Assembly: GCA_016873715.1 (NCBI GenBank)
Contig: VGWF01000021.1
Span: 1 to 43,662 of the forward strand
Direction of reading: 5' to 3'
Length of the DNA stretch: 43,662 nucleotides
Origin: Lentisphaerota bacterium
GTDB taxonomy: Bacteria; Verrucomicrobiota; Kiritimatiellia; PWTM01
Shown: positions 1 to 4,051 of the stretch, one piece after another
Position numbering within the stretch: the stretch's first letter is position 1
How the letters are laid out: the number at the start of each line of letters is the position of its first letter
Position numbers and translations under genes: made by a program
The notes under the pieces: model-generated
What the model saw: the letters and a program-made list of their open reading frames with translations, nothing else
Told to the model about the DNA's origin: nothing
Database searches by the model: none

Positions 1-759
1 GGGGCGGCCGAGGGTCGCGTTGAGGTTGGCGCCGTCGTAGTACATGAGGCCGTCGATGGCGTGCACGGCGTCGGCGATCTCGCGGATCCGCGCGGTGAAG
101 GTGCCCAGCGTGTCGGGACAGGTCAGCATGACGCCTGCGGTTTCGGGCGTGATGGCTTTCAGAAGCGCATCGACGTCCATCTGCCAGTCGCTGCGCGACG
201 GGATGGAGACCACGTCGTAGCCGGCGATGCGCGCGCTGGCCGGGTTGGTTCCGTGCGCGGCGTCGGGGATCACGATGTGGGTCTTGGCATTGCCGCGGTC
301 CTGGTGGTAGGCGGCCATCAGCATGACGCCGGTCAGCTCGCCGTGCGCCCCGGCGAGCGGCTGGAGCGTGAACTCGGCCATGCCGCAGATCTCGGAGAGC
401 ATGCGCTCCAGCTCGAAGAGCATCTGCAGCGCGCCCTGCGTGAGCTGGCCGCCGTGGCGCAGCTGCGGGAGGAGCGGGTGGAGATTCTCGAAGCCCGGCA
501 GCGCGGCGGCGGCCTCGCAGGCGCGCGGGTTGTACTTCATCGTGCAGGAGCCGAGCGGGTAGAAGTGGGTGTCGACCGAGAAGTTCCGGCGCGACAGGCC
601 CGTGAAGTGGCGGATCACGTCCAGCTCCGACGCCTCCGGCAGCGCGGCGGGTTCGGCGCGGCACATCGCGCGGTTCGACTCCAGCGACACCGGCCCGATG
701 GGCTCGGGCAGGCGCACGCCCCGGCGGCCCGGCACGCTCTTCTCGTAGATCAGGTCCAT
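1..759 (-). CDS. gcvPB: Glycine dehydrogenase (decarboxylating) subunit 2, 5' part
   Basis: This is the C-terminal-type P-protein subunit of the glycine cleavage system, a PLP enzyme that decarboxylates glycine and passes the aminomethyl group to GcvH. The visible 253 residues start with MDLIYEKSVPGRRG and contain the family stretches FYPLGSCTMKYNPR, PLAGAHGELTG and DAAHGTNPASAR. The PLP-binding lysine region and the C-terminus lie beyond the left edge, so the gene is cut by the window and not broken. The ATG at 759 fits the usual start of two-subunit P-proteins. The length and start show the split alpha/beta form, so gcvPA should lie nearby outside the window. It is divergent from the membrane-protein gene at 950. 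The identification is firm. Confidence 0.95.
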   Translation of the reverse strand, partial: MDLIYEKSVPGRRGVRLPEPIGPVSLESNRAMCRAEPAALPEASELDVIRHFTGLSRRNFSVDTHFYPLGSCTMKYNPRACEAAAALPGFENLHPLLPQLRHGGQLTQGALQMLFELERMLSEICGMAEFTLQPLAGAHGELTGVMLMAAYHQDRGNAKTHIVIPDAAHGTNPASARIAGYDVVSIPSRSDWQMDVDALLKAITPETAGVMLTCPDTLGTFTARIREIADAVHAIDGLMYYDGANLNATLGRP

Positions 760-826
760 GGTTGGCCTCGGTCCGGCGACGATACGTCCCCCGTGCCCCC
801 TCGGCAAGCGGGACGGGCAGGAGGAG

Positions 827-854
827 TTTCCATTTCCAGGTTTCAGGCTTCACG
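827..854. repeat. Degenerate heptanucleotide tandem array
   Basis: Four consecutive 7-base units (TTTCCAT, TTCCAGG, TTTCAGG, CTTCACG) lie in the 190-bp gap between the divergent gcvPB and membrane-protein genes. The period of 7 fades into GC-rich sequence downstream. No promoter could be assigned in the gap. It is one of several heptamer arrays of different sequence in this window. Confidence 0.5.
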
Positions 855-949
855 TTGGGCTCCGGTTTCCGGGTCCCCACTCCCGGCTTCCTTCCGCCGG
901 CATCGCGGGGTTGCCCGGTCGCGATTCAACCGCCATACTCCCGGGCGGC

Positions 950-3526
950 ATGTCCGGCACTTCCGCCATAGCGTCCCGGCTCCGGGCGTGGGCGCCCTCG
1001 GTCGTTCTGGCCGCGGGGGTGCTTGCGATCTGGGCCGTCTTCTCGTGGCCGCTGGCGGCGCACGTGACGGACGGAATCGCGTCGTCGTCGCACAACCGCG
1101 AGACCGGCGCGGTGCGGCGGATGATTCCCGGCGACCACCTGCAGCTCCTCTACACCTACTGGCTGGCCGGCGACATGATTGCCGGGCGGACGCCGTGGTT
1201 CCACAACCTCTACGAGTTCAACACGGGCGACGACGGCGAGTGCTTCCGCGTCCACGCCCAGTACGCGCCGTTCTCGTGGATCTTCGCGGCGACCTCCGCC
1301 GTCGCCGGCCGGGCCGCGGGGATGAACCTGGCGGGGCTCGTGTCGTTGTGGCTGACGGCGTGGTTGACGATGCGGCTCGCGCGGCGTTACGCGGAGGGCG
1401 ACGCGCTCGCGGTGCTGGCCGGCTGGCTCGCGATCCTGCTGCCGTTCCGCTGGATCATGCTGCTCGGCGGCAGCCCGATGGGCCACGCGATCACGTGGGT
1501 CCCGCTGCTCCTGCTCGGGGTCGACATCGTCGTGCGCGATCTGCGGGCGGCGGGCGGGTTCCTCGCGGGCCTCGGCCTGCTCTTCGCCTCGTGGGGCGAC
1601 AGCCACGTCCTCTTCTTCGGCGTCTTCGCCTGCGCGGGGTGGGTCGTGGTGGCGATCGTCGCCCGCGGCGGCTGGCCGTGGCGCGAGCGGAGGGCCTGGA
1701 TGGCGCTCCTCCGCGCGGCCGGCGCCGCGCTGGTCAGCCTGGTTCCGGCGCTGGTGATGCTCGCGTTCACCGTGGTGCGCCTCCGCGGGACCACGGCGGG
1801 CGTCCCGCGGGATCTCTCCGAGATCGCCCTCTTCTCGCCGCATCTGTCGGGCCTCTTCCGGTGGGGCGCCGGCGGGGTCGACAGCCATCTCTATCTCGGG
1901 TGGATCCCGTCCGCGATCGCAACGCTGGGCCTGGCCGGCTGGATCGCGGGCCGCCCGCGCTCGCCGGAGGCGTGGCGGCGGCTCGCGGTCTTCCTGCTGC
2001 TGCTGGCGGCGACGGCCGCCGTGATCGTACTGGCCACGGGGCCGCACGGCCCCCACGGCGGAGTCGTGTGGCGCGCGGCGCGCAAACTCGTGCCCCCCTA
2101 CCAGGCGATCCGTCAGCCGGCGAAGGTGCTCTGCCTTCTGCCGACCCTTGCGGCGGTCGGGCTGGTGGCGGGGCTGTCGGCATGGACCGGACTGCGGCGG
2201 CGTCCGGCGGCCGGCGCGGCGGCGGGTGCGCTGCTGGCCCTGGCGGTTGCGGCGGAGATGAAGGCGCAGATCCATGCGACGATCTGCACGCTCGATCACA
2301 GGCAGGGGGCCTACCAGGCGGTGGCCGCCCTCGCGCGCGCCGACGGCGTCGATCCGCGCGTCCTCGTCCTGCCGCTCTGGCCGGGCGACTCCGCCTACGG
2401 CTCCGTCTACCTGCACTACGCCTCGCTCTACCGGGTCCGCATGGCGAGCGGGTACTCGCCGGCGGTCCGGCCGTCCTACATCGAGGGGTTCTTCGAGCGG
2501 TTCAAGGACTTCAACCACGGCGGGATTCCGGATGCCTCGCTGGACGCGCTGCTCGGAAGGGGCATCCGCGCGATCCTGTTCCACGAGGACCTGTTCCCGG
2601 AGAAGGTCAGCCCGTTTCCCGCCGGACGCACGCTCGAGGCGCTGCGCCGGCATCCGCGGCTGCGGGTCCTCGCGCAGGACGGCCGGGTCTGGGCCTTCGG
2701 GATCCTGGCCCCCGGGGCCGCGCGGGCCGACGCGGGAGCGGTCGAGGCCTACGCGGATCCGTGGCCGCCCGCGCGCCGCAGCGAGATCGAGCGCGCCGCG
2801 CCGCGCGTGACGGCCGTTGACGACTCCTCCTGCAGCCGCGGATCGTACGGCGCGTTGGAGCGCGAGGGCGACGGCTTCGTCCTGCCGCGCGTGCCGCCGC
2901 ATGCCGAACCGGGCGCCGCGTGGTGGATGCGCGTCCGCGGCGACGGCGAGTTGTCGATCGCGTGGTCGCCCGGCGACGGCGAGGACGGGCCGCGGGCCGT
3001 GGTGCGGGTCGATTCCGGCTCCGCATGGACATGGCTGCGCGTGCCGCCGCCGGACGAGGTTCGGGACCGGGACCGCGTCACGCTCTCCGCCTCGTGGGCC
3101 TCGGGACGCGTGGGGGCCGACGTTGCGCTCTTCGCCGCCGCCGGGCCGCTCTCGATGAAGCCCGGCGAATCGCGCAGTTTCCCCGCGGCGACGTTCTTCC
3201 GCGCCGGCCACACGGCGCCCGGCGGCGCCGTGGTCTTCGATCCGGAACGCGATCCGGCGGACCGCGTCTTCTACGGTCCCTTCCGGCCGCTGGCGCCCGG
3301 CCGCTACCGCGCCGCCCTCGAGTTCGACACGCCCGCGGCGGCGGGCGAAGCGCCCGGGTCGTTCGCCGTCGAGGGCGTGGACGCGACGCCCGCGCCCGTC
3401 GCGGCCGGCCGCGCGGCGGAGGTCGAGTTCGTGCAGGTTGCCGATACGCCGTTCGTCGCATCCTTCACCTTCTCCCGCACGGCGCCCGTCACGGTGCAGC
3501 GCCTCGTGCTGCTGCGCCTCGAGTAG
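950..3526 (+). CDS. Large multi-pass membrane protein, GT-C-like, function unknown
   Basis: I do not recognise a characterised family. The 858-residue product has an N-terminal hydrophobic helix (about residues 11-32) and then about ten further membrane spans up to roughly residue 490. The first extracytoplasmic loop carries PGDHLQLLYTYWLAGD and PWFHNLYEFNTGDDGE, acidic and aromatic-rich as in the first loop of GT-C-fold glycosyltransferases and YfhO-type proteins. The last 350 residues are soluble and rich in beta-type sequence. A sugar transfer role from a lipid donor is inference. The ATG at 950 was preferred over the earlier in-frame ATG at 758 because the intervening 64 residues are low-complexity and precede the first membrane helix; no clear ribosome site is seen. 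Its final coding bases recur at 3992-4051. Confidence 0.7.
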   Translation: MSGTSAIASRLRAWAPSVVLAAGVLAIWAVFSWPLAAHVTDGIASSSHNRETGAVRRMIPGDHLQLLYTYWLAGDMIAGRTPWFHNLYEFNTGDDGECFRVHAQYAPFSWIFAATSAVAGRAAGMNLAGLVSLWLTAWLTMRLARRYAEGDALAVLAGWLAILLPFRWIMLLGGSPMGHAITWVPLLLLGVDIVVRDLRAAGGFLAGLGLLFASWGDSHVLFFGVFACAGWVVVAIVARGGWPWRERRAWMALLRAAGAALVSLVPALVMLAFTVVRLRGTTAGVPRDLSEIALFSPHLSGLFRWGAGGVDSHLYLGWIPSAIATLGLAGWIAGRPRSPEAWRRLAVFLLLLAATAAVIVLATGPHGPHGGVVWRAARKLVPPYQAIRQPAKVLCLLPTLAAVGLVAGLSAWTGLRRRPAAGAAAGALLALAVAAEMKAQIHATICTLDHRQGAYQAVAALARADGVDPRVLVLPLWPGDSAYGSVYLHYASLYRVRMASGYSPAVRPSYIEGFFERFKDFNHGGIPDASLDALLGRGIRAILFHEDLFPEKVSPFPAGRTLEALRRHPRLRVLAQDGRVWAFGILAPGAARADAGAVEAYADPWPPARRSEIERAAPRVTAVDDSSCSRGSYGALEREGDGFVLPRVPPHAEPGAAWWMRVRGDGELSIAWSPGDGEDGPRAVVRVDSGSAWTWLRVPPPDEVRDRDRVTLSASWASGRVGADVALFAAAGPLSMKPGESRSFPAATFFRAGHTAPGGAVVFDPERDPADRVFYGPFRPLAPGRYRAALEFDTPAAAGEAPGSFAVEGVDATPAPVAAGRAAEVEFVQVADTPFVASFTFSRTAPVTVQRLVLLRLE

Positions 3527-3548
3527 GCCCTGCCGCCAGGGTCGAACA

Positions 3549-3976
3549 TTGCTTCGAGGGCCTCCCGCACGGCGCCGACGGAGCGGCGCCCTCCAGGGCC
3601 GTCCTTTCGAACACGTCGGGCGATCAGGGATAGGCGTTGCTTCGAGGGTCTCACGCACGGCGCCGACGGAGCGGCGCCCTCCAGGGCCGTCCTTTGATTT
3701 ACGTGGAACAGGTCGGGTTGATCAGGGATAAGCCTTGCTTCGAGAGCCTCACGCACGGCGCCGACCCTGCTTCGCGAGGACGCTTCGCAGGGCAGGCGCA
3801 GCGGCGCCCTCCAGGGCCGTCCTTTCGATTTCCATGGAACAGGTCGGATCGATCAGGGATGGACGTTGCTTCGAGGGCCTCACTCACGGCGCCGACCCTG
3901 CTTCGCGAGGACGCTTCGCAGGGCAGGCACAGCGGCGCCCTCCAGGGCCGTCCTTTCGACTTCCATGGAACAGGTC
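3549..3976. repeat. Four tandem copies of a hairpin-forming repeat
   Basis: Four units begin with TTGCTTCGAG at 3549, 3637, 3735 and 3866. They share the order: that head, a hairpin core, CCTCCAGGGCCGTCCTTT, and (copies 2-4) GGAACAGGTC. Copies 1-3 also have GATCAGGGAT. The core in copies 1 and 2 is GGCGCCG-ACGGAG-CGGCGCC, a 7-bp stem with a 6-base loop (3571-3590, 3659-3678). In copies 3 and 4 the same stem encloses 38 bases, which can form their own CCCTGC/GCAGGG stem. Unit lengths are about 88, 98, 131 and 111. The array fills most of the 594-bp gap before the GH78 gene; open frames through it are repeat-derived and not taken as genes. Confidence 0.85.
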
Positions 3977-3982
3977 CTGGAG

Positions 3983-4002
3983 GGCCGCGCTCCGTCGCGG
4001 CC
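3983..4002. repeat. Stem-swapped variant of the hairpin, opposite orientation
   Basis: GGCCGCG-CTCCGT-CGCGGCC forms a perfect 7-bp stem. Its loop CTCCGT is the reverse complement of the ACGGAG loop in the upstream repeats, and the flanking CCTGGAGG is the complement of their CCTCCAGG. The element is therefore the same hairpin family inverted, with both stem arms changed in a compensating way. Confidence 0.7.
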
Positions 4003-4051
4003 GGCCGCGTGGCGGAGGTCGAGCTTGCGCAGGTTGCCGATGCGCCGTTCG
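3992..4051 (+). pseudogene. Displaced 60-bp copy of the membrane gene's 3' coding end
   Basis: These 60 bases align without gaps to 3396-3455 inside the membrane-protein gene, with five mismatches, all transitions. Translated in the matching frame the copy reads VAAGRVAEVELAQVADAPF against VAAGRAAEVEFVQVADTPF in the gene. Similarity stops right after this block. It is either the remnant of a tandem paralogue or a fragment carried along when the hairpin repeats expanded; its left edge overlaps the inverted hairpin. Confidence 0.7.

Follow-up and report, generated by a model that had tools for sequence, protein, structure and literature searches.

GGAG-tagged hairpins as a probable REP family associated with RAYT genes in a Lentisphaerota bacterium

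REP-associated tyrosine transposases (RAYTs, or TnpAREP) are regarded as domesticated transposases. The published tag of REP elements is GT[AG]G (PMC6006769), with some GYRG/GTMG degeneracy in the REP literature, which also notes an abundance of GTAG/GTGG REPs in Opitutus terrae (Verrucomicrobia). In GTAG-tagged REPs (Di Nocera 2013, PMC3733652; Nunvar 2010/2013, PMC2817692, PMC3686654) a 4-nt tag lies directly 5' of a short hairpin, and the 6–13 bp stems show complementary changes. The elements form inverted dimers and clusters, are placed after genes, occur as several families per genome and flank RAYT genes. E. coli TnpAREP recognizes GTAG with the participation of residues in the W94–R104 region, and other GT[AG]G subclasses in some cases have Arg in place of H101 (PMC6006769). 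Group 3 TnpAREP, which have perfectly paired REPs, require specific loop bases. In the Marinomonas member of this group a tag change altered the cut site by complementarity, the GTAG tag picking CT/CA, with A3-G4 corresponding to CT (PMC8266576).

The hairpins analysed here share with the GTAG-tagged REPs the features listed for these above, but have GGAG instead of GTAG/GTGG/GYRG, and a 6-nt loop, CTCCGT. They resemble the group 3 (subclass 2.5) TnpAREP/REP pairs of Stenotrophomonas and Marinomonas (PMC8266576) in their short, perfectly paired hairpins, conserved loop bases and small HUH-Tyr protein, and differ by the GGAG tag and by Thr/Arg at the position of E. coli H101, the likeness being one of features and not of published group models. 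As in REPINs (PMC3116915) and BIMEs, the repeated unit is two inverted REPs with a short spacer, also found in tandem arrays; here, however, the spacer has 34–36 nt, the tags point inward and the partners belong to two stem classes. IS200/IS605 elements likewise combine a single-strand hairpin and a 5' guide tetranucleotide with an HUH-Y1 enzyme, but in our case the gene is not carried by the repeats and many copies are solitary. Unlike CGTC-tagged REPs, which lack a RAYT, the GGAG-tagged repeats flank RAYT genes. In the main text of the freely accessible REP papers searched, the word “GGAG” was not found. The REP/RAYT kind is already known; as far as checked, what is new is a GGAG tag that belongs to a supported RAYT clade.

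The window is a 43,662-nt stretch (contig VGWF01000021.1 of assembly GCA_016873715.1, positions 1–43,662). Read on the CTCCGT strand, the motif is 24 nt long and consists of GGAG, a 7-bp stem and the loop CTCCGT between the two stem arms. Two identical copies on the minus strand, with GGCGCCG and CGGCGCC as stem arms, lie at 3571–3594 and, 88 bp further on, at 3659–3682; both were verified by their letters and by pattern count. Copies 3 (3757–3812) and 4 (3888–3943, 131 bp after copy 3), also on the minus strand, are long-loop forms. Both have the stem and tag of copies 1 and 2 and a structured loop of 38 nt, which in copy 3 holds an inner hairpin (CCCTGC...GCAGGG). Copy 5 (3979–4002, plus strand) is inverted and has another stem class, GGCCGCG-CTCCGT-CGCGGCC. 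Together with copy 4 it forms a REPIN-like doublet (3888–4002), with the GGAG tags face to face across a 35-nt spacer (3944–3978). The preliminary description had reported two GGCGCCG-ACGGAG-CGGCGCC hairpins, two further copies with a 38-base insert in the loop, and an inverted member with a different stem at 3983–4002, all of which was confirmed; without the tag, the first two lie at 3571–3590 and 3659–3678 and the long-loop ones at 3757–3808 and 3888–3939. It had also proposed the flanks CCTCCAGG and CCTGGAGG as conserved; they are present, but sharing of the wider flank is partial and limited to this genome, and what is conserved is the loop together with the 4-nt tag on the CTCCGT strand.

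The five copies span 3571–4002, and the entire cluster with its repeated spacers (3530–4002) is a BIME-like tandem array. It begins directly after the stop codon (at 3526) of a long plus-strand ORF (758–3526), for which a Pfam and NCBIfam search at E 0.001 gave no match. The window alone holds GGAG-N7-CTCCGT three times, where 0.27 would be expected; none of the shuffles gave as many as three. The segment 3925–4015, with the tag end of copy 4, the spacer and copy 5, had a single-strand folding z of -2.9. Long-loop forms were also found elsewhere in this genome (contigs C40, C20 at 33.7k and C8 at 57.6k), and in the better-preserved ones the extra sequence separates the CTCCG of the loop from its T. 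Right after the array, at 3992–4051, there is a repeat of the upstream gene's end (3396–3455), with 55 of 60 positions identical. This match starts inside the plus-strand REP, in its 3' half (CCGTCGCGGCCG), and looks as if a template switch or recombination had joined the REP to the gene end.

A motif confined to this locus, or stem changes that break pairing, would have told against the preliminary description; neither applied. GGAGGGNNNNGCTCCGTCNNNNCC had at least 181 exact matches on many contigs of the 5.1-Mb genome, against none for the pattern read backwards, and a 64-nt query taken from the window had 56. Of 388 genomes sampled across the phylum, 69 carried the motif, as did 18 of 58 relatives; both counts include the window's own genome, and both samples were free of other genomes of its genus. 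The named carriers of the exact 24-mer were mostly Verrucomicrobiota MAGs. The 24-mer was also present in a MAG titled Methanoregulaceae archaeon (JADZEW010000018.1, JADZEW010000021.1), reflecting either misbinned contigs or spread to archaea.

Stem classes vary among genomes (CGCC/GGCG, CCGC/GCGG, GCAC/GTGC, TTTT/AAAA, CCAC/GTGG and more). Among copies taken with no selection for pairing, 78 of 83 own copies with distinct contexts were perfectly paired, the other five having a single non-Watson-Crick pair; for copies in named records the figure was 179 of 197, and for those in relatives 73 of 84. In 60 distinct 24-mers, 86.2% of the cells were paired compared with 59.2% after shuffling, and double-sided changes occurred in six of the seven stem pairs. 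The covariation score was 0.602 versus 0.161 shuffled and was lost when the register was slid; such scores are inflated by related sequences. Despite this relatedness, it is difficult to account in any other way for a constant tag and loop beside two-sided changes at six of the seven pairs, bearing out the earlier claim that the loop is kept while both arms change together. GGAG stood directly before 78 of 81 perfect CTCCGT hairpins in the genome's own loci, a count partly selected by the search pattern. Many loci were fetched by patterns containing tag and loop, so that part of their constancy comes from selection; loci fetched through their RAYT, not selected by tag or loop, had the same constant tag and loop. 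A T preceded the tag in 94–96% of own and named copies, mostly as CT in the window's genome, and in 56% of the relatives' copies.

Among the 100 own copies listed, most close pairs were inverted and had their GGAG ends turned towards one another across 34–36 nt, and the usual partners were the stem classes GGCCGCG and GGCGCCG. The remaining copies formed tandem arrays with locus-specific periods. Inverted REP pairs, short spacers and tandem repetition, by which REPINs and BIMEs are recognized, were all present. The cluster in the window is intergenic, and copies within the RAYT gene of contig C11 are intragenic.

The search for REP-associated tyrosine transposases, suggested with the preliminary description, found such Y1 transposase genes in the same genome (contigs C147, C11, C35 and C170), including genes flanked by the same hairpin family. 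The C147 gene (7059–7520) passed the NCBIfam model NF047646, “REP-associated tyrosine transposase”, with 81.4 bits (cutoff 80), and its HUH (HVH) and catalytic Tyr (YxxxN) residues are intact; the C11 gene remained under the cutoff with 74.7 bits. A profile of three own RAYTs (alignment A1) matched E. coli TnpAREP (PDB 4er8) with an E value of 1.9e-7. The CTCCGT REPs on the flanks of the C147 gene belong to the classes GGGCACG and GGCGCCG, and the GGCGCCG one is identical to copies 1 and 2 of the window. CTCCGT REPs were also present at the C11 locus, and a TGCCAC-loop family at the C35 locus. RAYT genes flanked by their own repeat were seen at L218/L094, at L188 and at loci of other genomes.

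In the C11 gene an inverted CTCCGT REP pair (L188, 1677–1738) lies in the RAYT frame between the HUH and Tyr motifs and leaves the frame unbroken; in-frame REPs inside a RAYT gene are reportedly known for subclass 2.4. The RAYTs of C170 (L220/L099) and of L227 are flanked by GGAG repeats of a different build: the stem base has 4 bp (GGCC or GGCG), there is a tandem G-A mismatch, and the apex is GCTACGC or similar. C117 encodes a very divergent Y1 gene (L224, 863–2077) flanked by GTAG-tagged hairpins, whose loop GCTACGA contains CTAC, complementary to the tag.

Most RAYT loci examined in other genomes (e.g., L173, JAPLTG010000019.1) had their own tagged hairpins beside the gene, and at many loci these were GGAG-CTCCGT. 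On a tree of 66 RAYTs, tag and loop class required 16 changes compared with 35.4 when shuffled, and none of 200 shuffles was as low. In a second tree of 98 RAYTs, built without the tag-recognition columns, 47 rows formed one supported clade for which the automatic calls were all GGAG except L227, and another, separate group was likewise GGAG. Throughout the class, loop and tag are particular to the RAYT lineage. The L227 call, GTAG with Thr, was a calling error: inspected by eye, this RAYT has GGAG-tagged repeats on either side, with the GTAG ones at a greater distance. Similarly, L268 was first called GGAG and is actually GTAG with a 1-nt spacer.

Among relatives, the presence of motif and RAYT overlapped only partially. 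Genomes G013 and G049 had 62 and 73 CTCCGT REPs, respectively, and beside these no GGAG-type RAYT was found. Of the RAYTs checked, the one in G013 had GTAG repeats and that in G049 GTGG repeats. The CTCCGT REPs of these two genomes may be orphans, their partner lost or the repeats acquired. At loci L102–L187, mostly from Opitutaceae MAG-3/MAG-4, many hairpins with GTAG, an 8-bp stem and a 3-nt loop (GCT, GCC) were found next to the GGAG family.

We observed a repeat family with a fixed tag and loop and covarying stems, arranged in doublets and arrays, RAYT genes flanked by these repeats, and RAYT lineages matching tag and loop. The copy number is high and dispersed, the palindromes are within 20–40 nt and have covarying arms, and a cognate RAYT is flanked by the same repeat, as is characteristic of REPs; the 5' GT[AG]G tag is absent, and a conserved GGAG of the same length stands at its position. 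Because of this difference we claim a variant and not a canonical GTAG-REP. The hairpins are very probably non-autonomous REP elements, in REPIN-like doublets and BIME-like arrays, most likely spread in trans by a RAYT/TnpAREP of the same genome. The same-genome RAYTs, their flanking hairpins and the way hairpin type tracks RAYT phylogeny support the earlier suggestion that a TnpA(REP)-type protein mobilises a REP-like element; the mobilisation itself we infer. The best candidate enzyme is that of the intact C147 gene. By analogy with TnpAREP work in E. coli, Stenotrophomonas and Marinomonas, which provides the single-strand binding, the cleavage site and the mobilisation, GGAG and the hairpin would fold when the strand becomes single, e.g., during replication, and the RAYT would recognize both the tag, GGAG, and the loop, CTCCGT. 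With its HUH/Tyr centre it would then cut at a nearby dinucleotide picked by the tag. Since GGAG retains A3-G4, the predicted cut site stays CT, as with GTAG. Rejoining of the strands by the RAYT would move or multiply doublets.

The preliminary description had offered a structured RNA as the other option. We consider it very unlikely that the main role of the hairpins is at the RNA level, as terminators, mRNA stabilisers or CsrA/Rsm-type protein sites, even though the array lies 3' of a gene and the stems would fold in RNA too. CsrA prefers an ANGGAN hexaloop, and the loop of the other strand, ACGGAG, fits it; however, CsrA (PF02599) is absent from the window's genome and from motif-rich relatives such as G013, G014 and G049, and loop variants without ANGGAN (CTTCGT, TGCCAC, TTCCAC) retain the architecture. 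A CsrA sponge was ruled out by this absence from the genome. No T-run terminator was found, and with no terminator-like site a terminator was ruled out as well. The hairpins matched no family in an Rfam search, and the flanking of RAYT genes would be left unexplained. Less probable still, to the point of being hardly credible, is that the hairpins are autonomous or MITE-like ends of another transposon family. Dispersed inverted repeats and arrays with common spacers would fit such ends, but the gene type found flanked by the hairpins, the sole type searched for, is the RAYT, and the C147 gene passes a curated RAYT model.

An addition to the REP reading, rather than an alternative, would be that the tag pairs with the loop during recognition, in a fold beyond the simple hairpin. 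GGAG is complementary to CTCC, and the unrelated C117 system of the same genome has the corresponding match. Nevertheless, other GGAG families have the loops TGCCAC, GCC and GTT, and CTAC is missing from the loop in most GTAG families; with no linker and seven stem pairs, an intramolecular pseudoknot would be sterically unlikely. General tag-loop base pairing was unsupported across families, and we regard this addition as improbable.

A possible link between tag and enzyme was seen at the residue aligned with E. coli TnpAREP H101, which is Thr or Arg in the GGAG clade and usually His in GTAG-tagged relatives. In the first locus set, Thr occurred with GGAG 30 times and with GTAG once, His with GTAG/GTGG 18 times and never with GGAG, and Arg with GGAG 13 times and with GTAG once. 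In the second set, fetched later from other genomes or other places, the counts were 7 and 0 (GTAG/GTGG) for Thr, 20 with GTAG/GTGG and 2 with GGAG for His, and 5 with GGAG and 2 with GTAG for Arg (Fisher p 2e-5, on counts that ignore descent). Judged by these counts the association is strong. Other tags resulted from a few of the calls, and roughly one locus in three went uncalled. Tags were called by maximal-hairpin plurality, with an acceptance rule that did not use the protein residue, although the association had already been seen in the first set; this caller was adopted after the output of a binomial-cutoff caller had been seen, which gave too few calls and mislabelled overlapping GAGG/GGAG. 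The tree of 98 RAYTs holds only three independent residue/tag pairs on supported branches, and the switches are too few to prove causality. We treat the association, seen in aligned sequences, as a lead. It is possible, though somewhat less likely than not, that the GGAG-REPs form, with the RAYTs of their clade, a recognition class of their own, in which the guide changed from GTAG to GGAG together with residue 101 from His to Thr/Arg, the residue reading base 2 while A3-G4 still directs the CT cut.

If this separate class is real, guide-enzyme co-evolution would be directly testable by swapping tag and residue. Our results also suggest that searches limited to GT[AG]G would miss the whole GGAG branch. 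This large clade, from a phylum that has received little study, combines a shifted tag with loops specific to the clade and stems that covary freely; it offers a natural experiment on the co-evolution of tag, loop and enzyme.
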